From an uncultured Verrucomicrobiota bacterium (GTDB taxonomy: Bacteria > Verrucomicrobiota > Verrucomicrobiia > Limisphaerales > UBA9464): a stretch of 64,000 bases of DNA. The notes under the pieces are model-generated. The model did no database searches and had not been told where the DNA came from. It saw nothing but the letters and a program-made list of their open reading frames with translations. Position numbers and translations under genes: made by a program. Positions 52,710 through 60,523 of this stretch are shown here, in pieces; position 1 is the first letter of the stretch, and each line of letters begins with the position of its first letter. The stretch spans positions 137,432-201,431 of the forward strand of contig CAIXUG010000072.1 in assembly GCA_903922605.1 (NCBI GenBank). The letters run 5' to 3'.

Positions 52710-53351
52710 TCAAAGCAGCAGCCGCTCGATCTCCGCATAGCTGCTTACCACCGCGTCCGCGTCACGCAGTTTGTTCGCCGGCAAAGTGTTCGTGATGGCG
52801 ATGACCCGCATGTTGGCGGCGCGGGCGGCAGCGACACCGGCGGCAGAATCTTCGATCACGACACACTCCTGCGGCGGCACTCCGAGACGCTTCGCTGCGT
52901 GCAGAAAGATGTCTGGGGCGGGCTTGGGGTGCGCCACATCCTGAACACTCACGACGACCGGGAAATGCCGTTTGAGATCCCGCATGCCGAGCACGGTCTC
53001 GATCACGACATGGAGAGAGCCGGACGCCACCGCCAGCCGGGTCGTCGGCGAGAGTTTTGCCACCAGCTCCGGGATGCCGGGAAAGATCGGTTGGACGGCG
53101 CGGATGTTGTCGAGGAAGCGGCTTTGCTTCAGCTCGGTCAGCGCTTCCAGCGTCTGCGTCGGACGATGCATGGCAATGAAGTCATCCCACAGGGCGCGGT
53201 CGGAGCGTCCGATGTAGTCGTGGAACTGGATGCCATGCCGGTCGCCGTAACCGAGTTCGTGGAAGATTTCGCGGAACGTCTGCTCGTGCCGTGGCTCGCT
53301 GTCCACGATCACACCGTCCATGTCGAAGATGACTGCCGAGTAAGGTCGCAT
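52710..53351 (-). CDS. HAD superfamily phosphatase, beta-phosphoglucomutase-like
   Basis: 213 residues from ATG 53351; the frame is open to 53438 but the upstream part is not conserved-looking. HAD motif I is VIFDMDGVIVDSEP, motif II is AVASGS, motif III/IV is HPKPAPDIFLHAAKRLGVPP then CVVIEDSAAGVAAARAAN. A helical cap (about 20-85) of the beta-PGM kind lies after motif I. It acts as a sugar-phosphate phosphatase or mutase; substrate not determined. It converges with hemC. Confidence 0.9.
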   Translation of the reverse strand: MRPYSAVIFDMDGVIVDSEPRHEQTFREIFHELGYGDRHGIQFHDYIGRSDRALWDDFIAMHRPTQTLEALTELKQSRFLDNIRAVQPIFPGIPELVAKLSPTTRLAVASGSLHVVIETVLGMRDLKRHFPVVVSVQDVAHPKPAPDIFLHAAKRLGVPPQECVVIEDSAAGVAAARAANMRVIAITNTLPANKLRDADAVVSSYAEIERLLL

Positions 53352-53434
53352 CGAAAGGCGCGGATTGACGGGGGCCGCGCTTCCGGAGGCAAGCGACAAG
53401 TCAGCAACGCGGCGTCTCCCGTCCCGCCGCCGGC

Positions 53435-54862
53435 TCAATAGTTGGTGGAAACGCCGACCCGGAAGTATTCCTGCTCCAAGGTGTTGGTCAGCACAAAGAC
53501 GGTCTGGCCGCGCTCACCGGTTGCCAGCAGATCCCAGGTCATTCCGGCGGACAGCGTGGGCGTCCGGTAAAGCTGGTAGGTGAGCAAGTTCAACGAGTTG
53601 CCGATGCTGAGCTGGAGGGTGTTGTTCGCGGCCGGGCTGAGAGTGACGACCGGCTCGGGTGGTTGCAGAAGGAAAGGCAGGATGCAGACGGGGGCGGAGG
53701 AGGACAGTTTTTTGCCCGTGTCGGACAGCTGACCGGTCTCGGGATTGATGGAATAGAGCCGGATGTCGTTGGAGGTCTGCCCGGCCACGAGGCAAAAGGC
53801 TCCGGTCGGATCAATGGCGAAGTTCCGCGGGGTAGCCCCCGTTTTTTGCTGCTGAACCGGCGTCAGGACACCGCTCGCCGGATCGATGGAATACACCACG
53901 ACGGTGTTGTAGCCCCGGTTGGAACCGTAGAGGAAGCGGCCCGAAGGGTGCACGGCGATTTCGGCCGTGATATTCCCGGCAAACCCCGCCGGCGGCAGGG
54001 TGCTGATCGTTTGAAACGGAGTGAGCACGCCGTTCACCGGGTCGTAGTCGAAGCCGATGACGGTGGAGACGGTTTCGCAGATGACATAGGCCCGCCGGTA
54101 TTGCGGCTCAAACACCAGGTGGCGGGGACCGGACCCGGCCGCCACGGCGGTGATCAGCGTGGTGTTGGTCGTCAGGGAGCCGGCCGCCGCATCGAAGATG
54201 TAAGACCGGATCTGATCCAGGCCCTTGTCACAGACGAAGGCGAAATGGTTGCTGGAATCCAGCGTGACGCAATGGGCGTGCGGAGCCAGCCCCGGATGTT
54301 GCACGTGGGCGGAGGCGTCGCCCAGGGTGCCGTCCGCCTGGAGGGGGAACACCGAGACGCTGCCGCCATCGTAATTGGCCACGAGGACATTTCGGCCGCT
54401 CCCATCCACGACAATGAACGCGGGAGCCCCGCCGCCCGAGGGTTTTTGATTCAGTAGTTTCAAGGTTCCGTTGGTCGCGTTGACGGCGAAGGCGGACACC
54501 GCGTTGGCACCTTCGTTAACGGAATACAAAAACGCGCGGCTGGGCGGCATGGCGACGAAGGAAGGATCCGTCGTCGTCACCGCCTGAGTGATCGTCCCGA
54601 ACGTTCCCGTTCCCAAATCCAGGCTGGATACGGATATCTTGCCCGCGTAGGAGCCGACGTAGAACCGCTCCAATCCCGGCGCGGGCGGCGCGGCGGCGAC
54701 CGGAATGGCGAGGGCCAGAAGGAAGGCCAGCCAGACCGCTGCCGGAGGGCGGACTGAGCGGGGAGCGGGGAGCGGGGAGTGCGGAGAAGGCTCATCGCCA
54801 ATGCTCAGGTTGGCAGACGCGTGCGCTAGGTGTTCTCCCCGTTGATGGGAGAGGAAGGTCAC
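53435..54862 (-). CDS. Exported lactonase-family beta-propeller protein
   Basis: 475 residues if read from GTG 54862, but this start is doubtful. Just before the signal-peptide core (AVWLAFLLALAIPVAAAPPA) a 7-bp unit is repeated three times (54758-54778). An ATG at 54795 giving MSLLRTPRSPLPAPRSV is out of frame with three units and in frame with four (or one), so the true start may depend on repeat number. The body is a seven-bladed propeller of the 6-phosphogluconolactonase (PF10282-like) type: FYVGSYAGKISVSSLDLGTG, YSVNEGANAVSAFAVNATNG, HPSGRFLYGSNRGYNTVVVY. A ~70-residue C-terminal module ends in EYFRVGVSTNY. Confidence 0.8.
   Translation of the reverse strand: MTFLSHQRGEHLAHASANLSIGDEPSPHSPLPAPRSVRPPAAVWLAFLLALAIPVAAAPPAPGLERFYVGSYAGKISVSSLDLGTGTFGTITQAVTTTDPSFVAMPPSRAFLYSVNEGANAVSAFAVNATNGTLKLLNQKPSGGGAPAFIVVDGSGRNVLVANYDGGSVSVFPLQADGTLGDASAHVQHPGLAPHAHCVTLDSSNHFAFVCDKGLDQIRSYIFDAAAGSLTTNTTLITAVAAGSGPRHLVFEPQYRRAYVICETVSTVIGFDYDPVNGVLTPFQTISTLPPAGFAGNITAEIAVHPSGRFLYGSNRGYNTVVVYSIDPASGVLTPVQQQKTGATPRNFAIDPTGAFCLVAGQTSNDIRLYSINPETGQLSDTGKKLSSSAPVCILPFLLQPPEPVVTLSPAANNTLQLSIGNSLNLLTYQLYRTPTLSAGMTWDLLATGERGQTVFVLTNTLEQEYFRVGVSTNY
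54758..54778. repeat. Three tandem copies of a 7-bp unit (GCGGGGA)
   Basis: Perfect units at 54758-54764, 54765-54771 and 54772-54778. They lie inside the 5' end of the lactonase gene, between a good ATG (54795) and the signal peptide; the unit length is not a multiple of three, so copy number sets the reading frame. Confidence 0.85.
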
Positions 54863-54976
54863 GCCTCGGACAAATGAAAATTCCCCACGTTGCGGACGCC
54901 CTCGATGGTTTTCGTGGACGCCATGAAGCCAAGGCAGCCGTCTTGTGACCAGGCCGCACAGAATGGCCCAAGTCGA

Positions 54977-55020
54977 GTCCCCTCTTCCCTCAACGGGGAG
55001 AGGGTTAGGGTGAGGGGTGG
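54977..55020. repeat. Repeat family C, third copy
   Basis: CCCCTCTTCCCTCAACGGGG then AGAGGGTTAGGGTGAGGGG, an imperfect hairpin with the same wording as 8341-8380 and 8461-8500. It lies in the gap between the lactonase and the 944-aa gene and has no local partner. Confidence 0.75.
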
Positions 55021-55090
55021 GGGTCGTCATAAAGCCTGGGTGGCGCCTTTTCTTTCCACTCCGTCGTCTTCCTTTTTCCTTCGCTCGCCA

Positions 55091-57925
55091 TCATTTGGCC
55101 ACGCGGAAAAATCCTCCTGCCTGATCGAAGGGAACGGTCACCGGACTGGTGCCGCCTCCGGTCACGGGCGAGTAAGTCCCGGCCACAACACTGGCCGACT
55201 GCAAGGCACCGCCGCCTGTCCACGACAGTTTCAGGGCGCCTCCGGTCAGGCTGTACGTCAGCACCGGTGCGGTGGAGGCCGTCTCGGCGGGTCCGAAACC
55301 AGTGGGCACATAGGCGTTGTTGGTCGTGAGCAGCAGCTTGTCGAAGAGGAAGCCGTCCTCGCGCATCCAGACATTGATGACATGGGGCCCGGTGGTGGGC
55401 ACCGCCAGCGTCGCCGGGGTGGCGTCCACCTTCGTCCGGGACCAGACGTAACCGCCGGGAGGAAAGCCGGTGATCTTGGAGCTCGAACCGGAGGCGGGGA
55501 GCACACCATCAATCCCGACATTCACCGAATCATTCTGACTGATCCCCGGGGCGCTGTCGGCCAGGGCGCGTACCCAGACATAGTAGGTTCCCGCGATGGA
55601 GAAATCCAGGTCGTAGTCCAGCCGCGGCTCCACGGCGGTGTTGACGTTCTGATTATAGTTGATGTTCGGGTCCGCGAGCATGACGCCGTCGCCGGAAAAC
55701 CCGGCGGTGTTGGTCAGGACCCAGCGGTGCTTGTTGATGCCATCAAGGTCGAAGGACTCAAAGTTTCCCGAGAAATGCTCCGCTTCCACGGTGAGCAATC
55801 CGGGAATGGCCAGGTTGCCCGCCACGGCGAATGTCCACTGCTGATCGTAGGAAGCCCCGGCGCTGTCGCCGAACACAATGCGCACGGTGTTGGTCGAGCC
55901 GGCTGGCAAAGCAGTCGGGGGCTGATACTGGACCTGGGTGAGCCCCGGGCTGGCGGGGTCGGTGCCCAGCGTGGCTGCGACCACCGTGCCATTCAGGCGC
56001 AGTTGAATCGTGTTGGTCTTCACCGTCGCGCTGCCATCGACCAGCGTCAGGGCGATGGGGGTATTGGCCGGAACGCCGGCCTCGTCCGGCTTGGGAGTGG
56101 TGATGTACTGCACGTACGGGTGGGTGACCGTCGCCTGGCTATAGGCGGCCGGTCCCCCTGAGGCGGTATCTCCGATCAGAATCCGGCTGCCATCCGCCTT
56201 GATCTGGTACCATTCCAAACTGCTGGCACCCACGCCGGAAAACCAGAGCAGCCGGAAGGGATAGAGCCCGGCCTGCTGCACGACGAAGGAGAAGACCTTT
56301 TCCCCCTCCGGCCGGTCCTTGTCAAAGCGGGCGATCTCCGGTGCAAACAGGTCCTTGGGGTTGGCTCCGGCCGTCAGCCGGAAACCAGATTCCCGGAAGG
56401 AGCCGGGCGCGGTCGTGTTGTAATTCCGGACGGCATCCACGCCGAAGGTGTAGGCCCCGGGAGCCAGGTCCAGAAAGGTGGTGATCTCCAGGGCATATTG
56501 ATCTGTGCCGACCACGCCGGGGAAGAGTTCGTCGGAGAGGAAGAATCCTTGGCCGTCGGCAGCCGAGCTGAAATCGATGGAATTGGGCGCGGCGAAGGTC
56601 CCATCCGGATCGGCGCCACTCAGGTCCGCCACATTGGGCAGGACCGTGTTGTCCAAGGGATTCAGAAGTTTGTTGGCAAACTGCAACTCGGCCCGTTCCA
56701 CGGAGGTGCCGACGTCCACGGAAACCTGATGGGTCCGCACCTTGAAGCCGGTGAGGCCCTTGTCCACCACGGCTGCATCCACTGCGTCACTGGCTGGGAG
56801 GGTGGCATAAGGATAGACCGTGAAGGAGTAGCTGACCGAGCTTGTTTTCGCCGGGGTGGCGTCGTCGGCATAGGTCAGGGCCACCTGATGGGTGGAACCG
56901 GCGACCAGCAGTCCTGGCGGGTCGAACGTGATCGTGGTGACGCCATCCAAGCTGATCACCTTGGGGATGACGGTCGTCCCATCCAGCTTGAGCCCCAGCG
57001 AATCCGTCTTCACATGCGTGGCCGCGTCCTGCAATTGGATCGCGATGACCGCATCCGGGGAAACACTGCTCCCCCGAGGCTGGGCCGACTGGATGAACGC
57101 GGACTGGGACACCTTGGTGGCGATGGCGAGGTTGTCCACCCAGTACAGGTCAATGGGATCACCGACGAACCGTTCCGCCCCGGCATTGGCTGCCAGCGAA
57201 AAGCGCCCGGCCACGGGAGCATAACAGAGCACGTTGGTGAACACGGCATTGGTGCCGTAGAACACATCCAGCGTGCCTTCCGGGTGGACCTCGATTTTTA
57301 CGGCGGCGTAACCGGTCCCGGTCGAAAGGAAATCGACCAGCTTGGAAGCGATCAGCTGGTTGCCAAAGGTGACTTTGACCGCCGGGGCTTCGTTGGCCGG
57401 TCCCGCATTGTTGAACGTGTCGAACGACACGCGCAAACCGCTGCCGATCCCCTCCTCGGGAAACGCGAAGGTGTCATCGGGAATGTCCGGACCAAAACTG
57501 AAGCTCAGGCCGTCGCCATGCAGCACCGTGCTGGTATCGCTGCCGGTCCGCAGATTGAAGGTGGCGACGAAACTTCCGACGGGCTGGCCCCCATCCAGAT
57601 CATCGAGGATCAGGAACCCCGCCTGCCCGTTCGCCGTGTTCATCTTCAGACATCCTGATCCGCCGATGCCTCCGCTCCCATCCACCGCCGCCGTGCCGTA
57701 GAGGGTTCCCGGGACTGTATCCGCCGGCTCAAATCCGAGGGAAATGTTGCCCGCCCTAACATCATTCGGCAGACCGGCCAGGATGGCGGCAAGGATCGCT
57801 CCGCGAAGTAGCAGCAAACGGGCGGGAAGCAGCAATGTCGTGGAACCGCTGTGGTGGCAGGACGCGTCCGGAGAAACGGCGGGTGACAGCCGTGCCAGAG
57901 CCGATGATAGGGGTGACTGATTCAT
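55091..57925 (-). CDS. Secreted 944-residue multi-domain exoprotein
   Basis: 944 residues from ATG 57925. After a long signal region (core LLLRGAILAAILAGLPNDVR) comes an L-type-lectin/concanavalin-like domain (about 55-270, HGDGLSFSFGPDIPDDTFAF). Two Ig-like repeats of the same type follow (PRGSSVSPDAVIAIQLQDAA and DEAGVPANTPIALTLVDGSA), with a PA14-like segment between them (VVQQAGLYPFRLLWFSGVGA). A CBM-like stretch (LTVEAEHFSGNFESFDLDGI) precedes the C-terminal module ending GGFFRVAK. The architecture suggests glycan binding at the cell surface or outside. No catalytic motif is recognised. Confidence 0.78.
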   Translation of the reverse strand: MNQSPLSSALARLSPAVSPDASCHHSGSTTLLLPARLLLLRGAILAAILAGLPNDVRAGNISLGFEPADTVPGTLYGTAAVDGSGGIGGSGCLKMNTANGQAGFLILDDLDGGQPVGSFVATFNLRTGSDTSTVLHGDGLSFSFGPDIPDDTFAFPEEGIGSGLRVSFDTFNNAGPANEAPAVKVTFGNQLIASKLVDFLSTGTGYAAVKIEVHPEGTLDVFYGTNAVFTNVLCYAPVAGRFSLAANAGAERFVGDPIDLYWVDNLAIATKVSQSAFIQSAQPRGSSVSPDAVIAIQLQDAATHVKTDSLGLKLDGTTVIPKVISLDGVTTITFDPPGLLVAGSTHQVALTYADDATPAKTSSVSYSFTVYPYATLPASDAVDAAVVDKGLTGFKVRTHQVSVDVGTSVERAELQFANKLLNPLDNTVLPNVADLSGADPDGTFAAPNSIDFSSAADGQGFFLSDELFPGVVGTDQYALEITTFLDLAPGAYTFGVDAVRNYNTTAPGSFRESGFRLTAGANPKDLFAPEIARFDKDRPEGEKVFSFVVQQAGLYPFRLLWFSGVGASSLEWYQIKADGSRILIGDTASGGPAAYSQATVTHPYVQYITTPKPDEAGVPANTPIALTLVDGSATVKTNTIQLRLNGTVVAATLGTDPASPGLTQVQYQPPTALPAGSTNTVRIVFGDSAGASYDQQWTFAVAGNLAIPGLLTVEAEHFSGNFESFDLDGINKHRWVLTNTAGFSGDGVMLADPNINYNQNVNTAVEPRLDYDLDFSIAGTYYVWVRALADSAPGISQNDSVNVGIDGVLPASGSSSKITGFPPGGYVWSRTKVDATPATLAVPTTGPHVINVWMREDGFLFDKLLLTTNNAYVPTGFGPAETASTAPVLTYSLTGGALKLSWTGGGALQSASVVAGTYSPVTGGGTSPVTVPFDQAGGFFRVAK

Positions 57926-58133
57926 TGTGGGCTGGGGTTTCGGGTTTGGATTTCCGGGCGGCTGACGCACGCAGACGATGGCCGTGCGTCAAAGGAGTGA
58001 AGCCGCCAGGCTCTCGGACATGAGGGGAATTCCCAAGATGCTGTCGGGAAGGACCGGTTGAGGCAAGCCCCGAAACCGGGGAAGGCACGCCCAGACCGGT
58101 CCGCTTTCCGACCCCAGACTTTCTCAAACCGCT

Positions 58134-59648
58134 TCAGTTCCGCTCCACCACGAAGGAGTCCACGGTCAGCTTGCCCAGATAGGGGCCGATCCCCGCGAAG
58201 CCTTGCGCCTTGCCATAGTTTTTCCGGTTTTGATACCGGAGCTGTCCATCCACGGAGATTTTCATGCCGGTTTCCGTCACCTCCCAGACGAGGTCATGCC
58301 ATTCGTTGGCCAGAACCCTGCCCATGTTGGGGACCGGCGTGATCTGGTTGGTGAGGGGATCGTGAACCCGCAATTCTCCGGGATTGTCCTGCCAGTTGAA
58401 GATCACCAGGCCCAGAGCGTAGTAGAGCCGGATGTCGATCGAGTCGGTTTTGGCGCGGACGCGGATGGTGAAGGGCGGACGGAGCTGTTCAGCGCATTTC
58501 AGCATCGGAGCGGGTGCCGTGCCGGAGGCCAGAGTCATGCCTTCCGGTTCGTTTATCACCCGCACGTCGTTCACGGGAACCATGGAGGCCAGCAAATTGC
58601 CCGGGAAGGGTGGCGTGGGTTTCAGCGCCAGCAGCTCGGCGTTGGTGGTGGGCTGCCCCTCCAGCTCGACGCTCCGAATGGTGAGCGGTCCATCGCGCGA
58701 ACCGATGGCCGGGTAGGCATCGAGCCGGGTGTAGTTGCCCGCAGCTTCATAGCGGATCTGCCCATCCACCACCACCCGCATGGCGTTGGTGGTCACCTGC
58801 CAGACCAGCTCATGCCAGTCGCCGTGGGAAAGTGAACCCTGTCCCGGCGCGCCTGCGGACAATCCGGTGAGCGGATCATGCACGCGCAGCTCGTCGGCGT
58901 TGGCAGTCCAGTTGAAGACCACGATTCCCAGCGCGTAGTAGAGGCGCACATCACCCGAATCGGTCAGTACCTGCGCCCGCAGTGTGAAGGGCGGACGAAT
59001 GGGCTGCGGCGTGCGGAGGTAATCCCGGGTACCGGGGGCGTCCAGATGGACGCCGTCGGCACTCGGGCTCGCCGTGGCACTGTTCGCGGGAATCAGCCGG
59101 CCCAGGATGTTCTTTGGGTTCGTGGGGACGGTGGAGGAAGCCGGTGGCGGCGGTGTCACCGGAGAAGCCGGACGGGGCTTGACGATGGGCACGTCTGCCA
59201 TCGTTTTGCGCGTACCGGACCGGTCTGAATCCTTCGAGCTAGGCCAGACGTAATAGATCAGGGTGCCTCCAAGCACGGCGACAACCACAAACATGATGGC
59301 CTGCCAGAATCCTCCATGCTCGGACGCCACCGGTTCGGAAGCTGGCGGAGTCCGCTCGGGTGCCGTCTTTTCTGGCTCCGGTTGAGGGGGCTCCGGTTCC
59401 GTTTCTGAGGCAGTCGCCTCGTGGTTTTCGGCCGGCTCCGCTGCGGTGAAAACGTGGGTCTCCAGATAATCGTACGCCCAGTTGGCTTCCTTGAGCCGCT
59501 CTTGCAACTCGTGCTGCTGGATCGGGTCGTGGCTGAACTGGTCGGGGTGCCAGGCCTTGACCAGATTACGGTAAGCCCACTTCACAGTCTCCCGGGAAGA
59601 CCCCGGCTCGACGCCCAAGATGATCCAACAGCGGTCCAGGTCGCCCAT
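58134..59648 (-). CDS. J-domain / transmembrane / tandem lectin-like chimera
   Basis: 504 residues. The N-terminus is a J domain: CWIILGVEPGSSRETVKWAY then HPD at residues 34-36 (KAWHPDQFSH), helix IV following. An acidic Pro/Glu-rich linker (about 72-105) leads to one membrane helix (about 113-135, FWQAIMFVVVAVLGGTLIYY). Outside lie two homologous ~150-residue domains: RPPFTLRAQVLTDSGDVRLY and RPPFTIRVRAKTDSIDIRLY, each with DWHELVWQVTTN or EWHDLVWEVTET and VDGQ(I/L)RY, a LamG/concanavalin-like pattern. J domain in the cytosol, lectin-like domains in the periplasm. It should recruit a DnaK; function unknown. I know no standard family with this order. Confidence 0.82.
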   Translation of the reverse strand: MGDLDRCWIILGVEPGSSRETVKWAYRNLVKAWHPDQFSHDPIQQHELQERLKEANWAYDYLETHVFTAAEPAENHEATASETEPEPPQPEPEKTAPERTPPASEPVASEHGGFWQAIMFVVVAVLGGTLIYYVWPSSKDSDRSGTRKTMADVPIVKPRPASPVTPPPPASSTVPTNPKNILGRLIPANSATASPSADGVHLDAPGTRDYLRTPQPIRPPFTLRAQVLTDSGDVRLYYALGIVVFNWTANADELRVHDPLTGLSAGAPGQGSLSHGDWHELVWQVTTNAMRVVVDGQIRYEAAGNYTRLDAYPAIGSRDGPLTIRSVELEGQPTTNAELLALKPTPPFPGNLLASMVPVNDVRVINEPEGMTLASGTAPAPMLKCAEQLRPPFTIRVRAKTDSIDIRLYYALGLVIFNWQDNPGELRVHDPLTNQITPVPNMGRVLANEWHDLVWEVTETGMKISVDGQLRYQNRKNYGKAQGFAGIGPYLGKLTVDSFVVERN

Positions 59649-59884: not shown

Positions 59885-60523
59885 TTAGCGACGGACCCGG
59901 CGCCAGGTGCCGAAGGCGAGGAGCAGTCCACCGGCGGCCACGGCCCAGAAGCCGGGTTCGGGAACCGCCGTCACCGTCACCGGGATGTCGGTGCCGGAGG
60001 CCGTGGCGAAGGTGGGGGAAGCACCGTTGATTGTGATGGTGAACAGCGAGTTATCCGACGCCGTCGTGGGGATGTTGAACAGGCTGCTGTCGAGGATGCC
60101 GAAGGTGAAGACATCCGGAGTCACGCCGGCGTCGGCGTTGAGGGTGAGCGAGACATGGAACTTCAGCGTCGAGCCTGGGGTGAACCCCTGATAGAGCTCG
60201 TTAAAGGCCGACGTCTCGGTCAGCTGCACGCCGCTGACCAGGTCGCCGGAGGCGCCGCCGCTCAGGGTGGCCCCGCCGGTGGCGGAGCCGCCGAAGTAGA
60301 AGAAGCCGCCGATGGTGGCCGTGTTGTTGGCGTCGGCGCTGCCGCTGCCGTCATTGAGCTGGAAGTCCAGCGAGAAGGGCCCCGAGGCCTGGCCGATCAG
60401 GGGGGCCGTGTTGATGGTGATGTCGTATGCGCCGGGCGTGGCGCAGGCGAGCGGGGCGAGCAGAAGCGCGCCCGTCGCGGCGACGAGGCCGGTGACCGAG
60501 GTGGAACTGAGCATGTTCTTCAT
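59885..60523 (-). CDS. PEP-CTERM sorting-domain protein
   Basis: 212 residues. A signal peptide (core LVAATGALLLAPLACATP) is followed by a Gly/Thr/Ser-rich secreted domain. The C-terminus is a PEP-CTERM signal: VPEPGFWAVAAGGLLLAFGT then WRRVRR, i.e. the PEP motif, a membrane helix and basic residues. Such proteins are processed by exosortase and usually sent to the surface or extracellular matrix; no exosortase gene is in this window. It lies 48 bp after the phosphoesterase fusion on the same strand and has its own terminator. Confidence 0.9.
   Translation of the reverse strand: MKNMLSSTSVTGLVAATGALLLAPLACATPGAYDITINTAPLIGQASGPFSLDFQLNDGSGSADANNTATIGGFFYFGGSATGGATLSGGASGDLVSGVQLTETSAFNELYQGFTPGSTLKFHVSLTLNADAGVTPDVFTFGILDSSLFNIPTTASDNSLFTITINGASPTFATASGTDIPVTVTAVPEPGFWAVAAGGLLLAFGTWRRVRR

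Follow-up and report, generated by a model that had tools for sequence, protein, structure and literature searches.

J domains act together with cytosolic Hsp70. The locus examined here raises the question of what such a domain might do when it is joined, through a single predicted membrane helix, to a pair of lectin-like domains. The gene lies in a stretch of 64,000 nucleotides from an uncultured Verrucomicrobiota bacterium (contig CAIXUG010000072.1 of assembly GCA_903922605.1), the whole of which is referred to as the window, and the parts of the gene are set out in Table 1. A preliminary description had proposed that the encoded protein combines a cytoplasmic HPD-containing J domain, an acidic linker, one membrane helix and two homologous LamG-like domains in a layout for which it knew no named family.

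Table 1. Parts of the J-LamG gene and their positions in the window
Feature	Residues	Window coordinates	Strand	Basis
Whole coding sequence	504 aa plus stop, ATG start	58134..59648	minus	ORF list; dN/dS 0.22
J domain	1-68, HPD at 34-36	59445..59648	minus	Pfam DnaJ above cut-off; invariant HPD; modelled helices
Acidic, proline-rich linker	69-116	59301..59444	minus	11 D/E, 2 K/R and 10 P in 48 residues
Single hydrophobic (membrane) helix	117-135	59244..59300	minus	Hydropathy over 19 residues
Proline-rich, basic linker	136-179	59112..59243	minus	10 P, 7 K/R and 3 D/E (residues 137-179)
First LamG/ConA-like domain	180-335	58644..59111	minus	43% identity to second copy; dN/dS 0.14
Second LamG/ConA-like domain	351-504	58137..58598	minus	Pfam GH59_C; model pLDDT 72, CBM66 Z 16.7

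The gene and its J domain

The open reading frame is a real gene under purifying selection. We draw this conclusion because a protein comparison among the genomes of the order found an orthologue in G004 that is 90% identical across the full length, because dN/dS against this relative is 0.22, because the GC content of the gene reaches 77% at the third codon position as against 47.5% at the second, and because relatives at 40-42% identity occur in two other families, covering residues 1-503 in G047 and residues 1-475, with an internal stop, in G055. A protein identical to the G004 orthologue is carried by L022 (record CAIVQH010000052.1, uncultured Verrucomicrobia bacterium), and a protein search in the contigs of close relatives matched one relative, the 90% identical one. 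Measured against that relative, dN/dS is 0.14 in the first LamG domain, 0.19 in the second and 0.20 in the J domain, rising to 0.26 in the acidic linker, 0.53 in the helix (24 codons only) and 0.68 in the proline linker, the fastest evolving part of the protein. The linkers are weakly conserved among orthologues and evolve faster than the domains.

The J domain proposed earlier was recovered by the Pfam DnaJ family at 34.7 bits (cut-off 27.8), and in an alignment of 13 J domains H34, P35 and D36 are invariant and R27 nearly so. The full-length structure model is poor (pLDDT 45.5, pTM 0.30) and its only credible part is the set of J-domain helices at residues 3-11, 19-32 and 42-67, the last two of which flank the HPD; the protein has, in other words, the HPD between helices II and III by which a J-domain protein is recognised. 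DnaJ C-terminal and zinc-finger families are absent from its Pfam matches up to E 1, and the models for whole proteins score far under their cut-offs (30.7 against the 377.2 needed for full-length DnaJ, TIGR02349; 20.3 bits against 162 for the NCBIfam DjlA model). An identity as a class A or class B DnaJ was rejected, the protein having neither the DnaJ C-terminal client-binding domains nor the class A zinc finger. The J domain is the sole part that it has in common with DnaJ, and it is accompanied by a helix and other domains, as in membrane-anchored class C proteins. By definition it is a class C J-domain protein, its other parts being unrelated to DnaJ.

The composition of the acidic linker (Table 1) agrees with the preliminary description, as does the presence of one membrane helix, since residues 117-135, with a mean hydropathy of 2.15, form the sole hydrophobic stretch, the next best reaching 1.1. 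The five other proteins in which a J domain is joined to LamG each have a single helix in the equivalent position.

In E. coli, three membrane J proteins (DjlA, DjlB and DjlC) hold Hsp70 at the membrane's inner face. The J domain of DjlB and DjlC is N-terminal to the membrane helix, whereas DjlA has its helix N-terminal and its J domain C-terminal and is not known to have a lectin-fold domain. DjlB and DjlC are described as tail-anchored class C J proteins in a published account (PMC8215388). The window protein resembles them in having its J domain at the N terminus, ahead of a membrane helix, so that the J domain would likewise be tied to the membrane, but they end at the anchor, whereas 369 residues with two lectin-fold domains remain beyond the 19-residue helix window of the protein described here. 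It was not assigned to the tail-anchored type, its helix not being at the extreme C terminus. With DjlA it shares the status of a membrane-anchored class C J protein, and identity with DjlA was rejected on the reversed order, the J domain at residues 1-68 preceding the helix at 117-135. The J-helix-LamG layout was not found in the literature searched, a set lying outside the two surveys likeliest to hold it (Barriot 2020; Malinverni 2023), and passages of PMC7016017 are unrelated to it. Judged by this literature, the protein varies a known kind: its layout is close to that of DjlB and DjlC, with a lectin-fold pair, probably outer, added.

Fold, duplication and distribution of the tandem domains

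The two C-terminal halves of the protein are 43% identical to each other (155 columns, E 1e-45), in line with the proposal that they arose by duplication. The duplication probably predates the divergence of the genera concerned, because a tree built from 18 repeats places the second copies from G000 (the window's genome), G047, G055 and G068 in one group, with the first copies outside; the support for this grouping, 92/94, sits just below the program's mark of 95.

When the whole protein was scanned, the Pfam lectin domain family Glyco_hydro_59_C (35.5, cut-off 27) and Laminin_G_2 (23.8, cut-off 22.9) both passed, and Laminin_G_3 scored 24.0, under its cut-off of 27.6. With the repeats scanned one at a time, only 3 of the 16 LamG domains reach Glyco_hydro_59_C with an E value of at most 0.01, among them the second repeat of the window protein with 21.4 bits, under the cut-off of 27. 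A profile of the 16 LamG domains found, as sequence relatives in the PDB, only Ankyrin-3 at a chance-level E of 0.16.

Modelled alone, the second repeat is all beta, with a pLDDT of 72.3 and a pTM of 0.76. Since the five models span pLDDT 45 to 72 and were built from a four-sequence alignment of both copies from two close genomes (the window and L022), we regard the quality as fair, not strong. The best PDB match of this model in Foldseek is the CBM66 structure 4azz (E 3.1e-7, TM 0.71 by query length). VIA-align places it close to CBM66 (Z 16.7, rmsd 2.8 Å over 147 residues), to an engineered beta-glucanase (Z 16.0) and to the mouse galactocerebrosidase lectin domain (Z 15.8, rmsd 2.5 Å over 150 residues), and, going by title, most of the best 50 VIA-align rows belong to the ConA-like fold, as glucanases, alginate lyases or lectin-like proteins. 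On this model the second copy is a ConA-like beta-sandwich which, within the ConA/LamG fold, appears to lie nearest to CBM66 and to the galactocerebrosidase lectin domain (PF21708). The likeness to these two lies in the fold of the second repeat and in the Glyco_hydro_59_C match of the whole protein, but identity in the structural alignments is 12-13% and the window protein has no glycosidase domain. The preliminary description had asked for a structure prediction of the C-terminal halves, and the copy that was modelled proved lectin-like; its term LamG-like stands as regards the lectin fold, although by structure CBM66 and the galactocerebrosidase lectin domain are nearer. GH16-type glucanases carry the catalytic motif ExDx(x)E. 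This motif is absent from the window protein, and an identity as a glucanase of that type was discarded.

A profile of the LamG copies matches 16 of the 320 genomes of the order, a count which, like every genome count given here, is a lower bound, only part of the first-pass candidates having been scored (for the window's genome, 11 of 16 with the LamG profile in the order, 19 of 42 with the J profile in the order and 15 of 42 with the J profile in the phylum). A J domain and LamG are joined in six of the 320 genomes (G000, G004, G047, G055, G068 and G155), so that the join is rare in the order. Two whole LamG copies follow the J domain in G000, G004, G047 and G068; the second copy is shortened by a stop in G055, and the first is cut at the contig end in G155. 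In 9 of the 16 matching genomes the ORF that carries LamG has no J domain, the match in G071 is a 43-residue piece only, and G068 holds two further LamG pieces, one of them at a contig end. In the phylum sample LamG matches occur in 5 of 387 genomes, including that of the window, and the LamG ORFs of the other four have no J domain. At L071:3242-3904 the LamG domain is preceded by a helix and, before that, by a zinc-ribbon-like N terminus, which would be a further join of an inner domain to an outer LamG.

Modules joined to the same J-domain subfamily

Searching the order with a profile of 13 related J domains gathered a subfamily whose 51 proteins are spread over 46 of 313 genomes. The E-value cut of about 1e-20 is our own choice, weaker matches from 1.5e-18 down grading into ordinary DnaJ. 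Across the phylum only two further genomes of 387 match at 1e-17. The HPD motif, which is needed for Hsp70 stimulation, is present in 49 of the 51 members and is replaced in the other two (L120:587-925 and L125:595-2064) by SPD and QPD. Exactly one hydrophobic helix is predicted in 39 members, several in two and none in ten; of these ten, a contig end truncates one, and another two are short, with 100 and 118 aa. Among the 39 single-helix members, five of which are cut at the end of the sequence stretch examined, 33 continue for 96 or more residues past the helix window and six end within 15. Thus, with 10 of 51 members lacking the helix and 6 of 39 stopping just beyond it, the outer module is not constant in the subfamily. 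The six short members resemble DjlB and DjlC. Start codons and neighbouring genes were assigned by simple scripts, and in 13 of the 51 proteins the open frame extends more than 25 codons upstream of the chosen start.

Pfam analysis of 48 members, from which L010 (cut), L093 (short) and L081 (the G004 near-copy) were left out, gave DnaJ in all 48, Sel1 in 14, Laminin_G_3 in five, FGE-sulfatase in four, Golvesin_C and Glyco_hydro_59_C in two each, and single cases of a 3-keto-disaccharide hydrolase, of a cyclophilin and of NHL with Ig. On a J-domain tree of only 76 columns, with module labels assigned by hand and bootstrap unsettled, the well-supported branches call for at least three changes for Sel1 and at least two for another module, which has no name. 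On the tree as drawn, two changes account for the six J-LamG proteins, and one origin is still compatible with it. This small tree fits a history in which the J domain was kept and the modules behind it were exchanged. As for the statement that no named family has this layout, no single Pfam or NCBIfam family spans it; the protein is, however, not a lone oddity, several modules being joined to the same J domain.

The window's genome encodes a paralogue (G000:C55, L036:13357-14343, minus strand) that consists of a J domain, one helix and a domain without a Pfam match, and by eye the same kind of domain also follows the J domain in L090, L105, L106 and L117. Membrane helices are absent from L121:1537-2298 (minus strand), which joins the J domain of this subfamily to a cyclophilin-type prolyl isomerase, and from L035:6705-7727, L111:654-1676 and L116:499-1521, which join it to an FGE-sulfatase domain. 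The C-terminal parts of L012, L082, L085 and L135 share a 'vGsT..eV..iqG.P'-like motif, which we take to resemble BamE/SmpA; a family of that type is not among the Pfam matches of L012, L082 and L085 in the 48-member scan, which did not include L135.

Orientation, function and gene neighbourhood

The window protein is likely to be oriented with its J domain inside and its LamG pair outside. This orientation is supported because all nine stand-alone LamG relatives carry an N-terminal export or anchor segment (four lipoboxes and five other hydrophobic segments, one of the five lying behind a zinc-ribbon-like stretch, all called by a simple motif and hydropathy script), because the N-side of the helix is the more positive in 20 of the 39 single-helix subfamily members and the C-side in eight, with 11 ties (p 0.036, too generous a value for related sequences), and because J domains work with cytosolic Hsp70. 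By the positive-inside rule, the flanking charges of the window protein itself (no K/R on the N-side, three on the C-side) and of its 90% identical relative (one versus three) predict the opposite orientation. The topology put forward in the preliminary description thus has indirect support, from the LamG relatives and from 20 of the 28 untied members, and the protein's own charges disagree with it.

The reading that we prefer, and to which we give an even chance of being right, is that of a single-pass inner-membrane class C J protein whose J domain recruits Hsp70 at the inner face and whose periplasmic LamG pair sets the place. With the acidic linker as a flexible tether, the J domain would reach into the cytosol and stimulate an Hsp70 at the inner membrane face, either DnaK or the second Hsp70 of the genome. 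The concanavalin-fold pair would lie in the periplasm and bind an envelope glycan or a glycosylated partner, and the binding of this ligand would decide the envelope site at which the chaperone acts, the J domain firing Hsp70 on whatever lies there. A tether is favoured over a signal-transmitting rod because the linkers are long and fast-evolving. For the window protein we infer the orientation, the Hsp70 partner, the glycan ligand and a purpose of placing as opposed to signalling. That a J domain is linked through a predicted membrane helix to a lectin fold, and within its family to varied other modules, suggests that some bacteria may steer Hsp70 by the contents of the envelope. Envelope polymers and cytosolic chaperones would then be connected in a concrete way that can be tested; the family of 51 proteins offers a pool from which a well-behaved member could be chosen for biochemistry.

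In the window's genome a full-length DnaK-type Hsp70 is accompanied by a second, divergent Hsp70 and a weak third match. The second Hsp70 is present in all six genomes that join J and LamG, and a DnaK-type match in five of them, partial in G068 at a contig end and missing in G155, which is 75% complete. The second Hsp70 was rejected as a dedicated partner, and neither Hsp70 is singled out, because it also occurs in relatives without a J-LamG gene, for example G002, G005 and G007.

Bacterial membrane Ser/Thr kinases with swappable outer domains offer an analogy: they too combine an output domain that is conserved and cytosolic with one helix and a variable outer module, although the output domain of the window protein would be an Hsp70 co-chaperone and not an enzyme. 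A bolder and unlikely reading at the level of the family is that of transmembrane chaperone receptors centred on this Verrucomicrobia order, with a conserved cytosolic J domain, a helix and interchangeable envelope-sensing modules; were it true, binding outside, here of a glycan by two lectin domains, would set local Hsp70 activity inside, making these proteins an Hsp70 equivalent of receptor kinases. For the window protein itself the corresponding alternative, in which a ligand on the outer LamG pair alters the state of the J domain, by dimerisation or by release from the acidic linker, and Hsp70 activity is the output of an envelope sensor, the part that the kinase plays in receptor kinases, seems to us unlikely. 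One conserved inner domain followed by many different modules is the pattern expected of receptors, the LamG domain of L071 also stands behind another inner stretch and a helix, and the acidic linker is long. Set against this, there is no conserved coupling segment, the acidic and proline linkers having a higher dN/dS (0.26 and 0.68) than the domains; long disordered linkers would transmit a conformational change poorly; no partner gene is conserved; and the six short single-helix members have almost nothing past the helix.

We also think it unlikely, and rank it next, that the protein is mainly an anchored envelope lectin or adhesin whose J domain only aids its own insertion or keeps a chaperone near the translocon. 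The J-free LamG relatives do resemble ordinary secreted proteins and lipoproteins, and the 6 of 39 single-helix members that have at most 15 residues past the helix window amount to a J domain and a helix. A role in insertion, however, predicts J domains on many exported proteins, and what is seen is 51 proteins in 46 of 313 genomes; the J domain itself, moreover, is under purifying selection (dN/dS 0.20).

Decidedly improbable is a protein that is reversed or does not span the membrane, with the LamG pair in the cytosol or a degenerate, non-chaperone J domain outside. It draws on the charges flanking the helix in the window protein and its 90% identical relative, and on the ten members without a helix (of which a contig end truncates one), such as those joining J to cyclophilin or to FGE-sulfatase. 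Against it stand the invariant HPD and nearly invariant R27 of the 13 aligned J domains, the export or anchor segments of all nine stand-alone LamG relatives, and the Golvesin_C, LamG and 3-keto-disaccharide hydrolase modules of the subfamily, which are usually found on exported proteins.

Class A and class B DnaJ proteins, as presented in two accounts, have two client-binding beta-sandwich domains C-terminal to the J domain (PMC8215388; PMC13254874), and it is very improbable that the two homologous tandem beta-sandwiches of the window protein, likewise C-terminal to J, are a convergent replacement that binds unfolded clients, given the hydrophobic helix between the J domain and the LamG pair, the ConA-like fold, and the stand-alone LamG relatives with export or anchor segments.

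The surroundings of the gene vary. A fabG-acpP-fabF cluster lies just upstream of the J-LamG gene in G047 and upstream of it in G055, where a further ORF separates fabF from the gene, and fabF was not seen in the other stretches examined around LamG genes. It was found in all ten genomes searched, on a different contig from the LamG gene in G000, G004, G068 and G155. A conserved fab operon as a general functional link was rejected, fabF being near the gene in G047 and G055 only.

Within the window, two genes (53435-57970) separate the J gene from a HAD-family gene (52710-53438), and in G004 the HAD reading frame starts about 24 bases after the J gene, the difference pointing to an insertion or a loss at this place. 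Just upstream of the J gene, a small protein is encoded on the minus strand at 59885-60523, whose tail of VPEPG, a helix and RRVRR is presumably PEP-CTERM-like.
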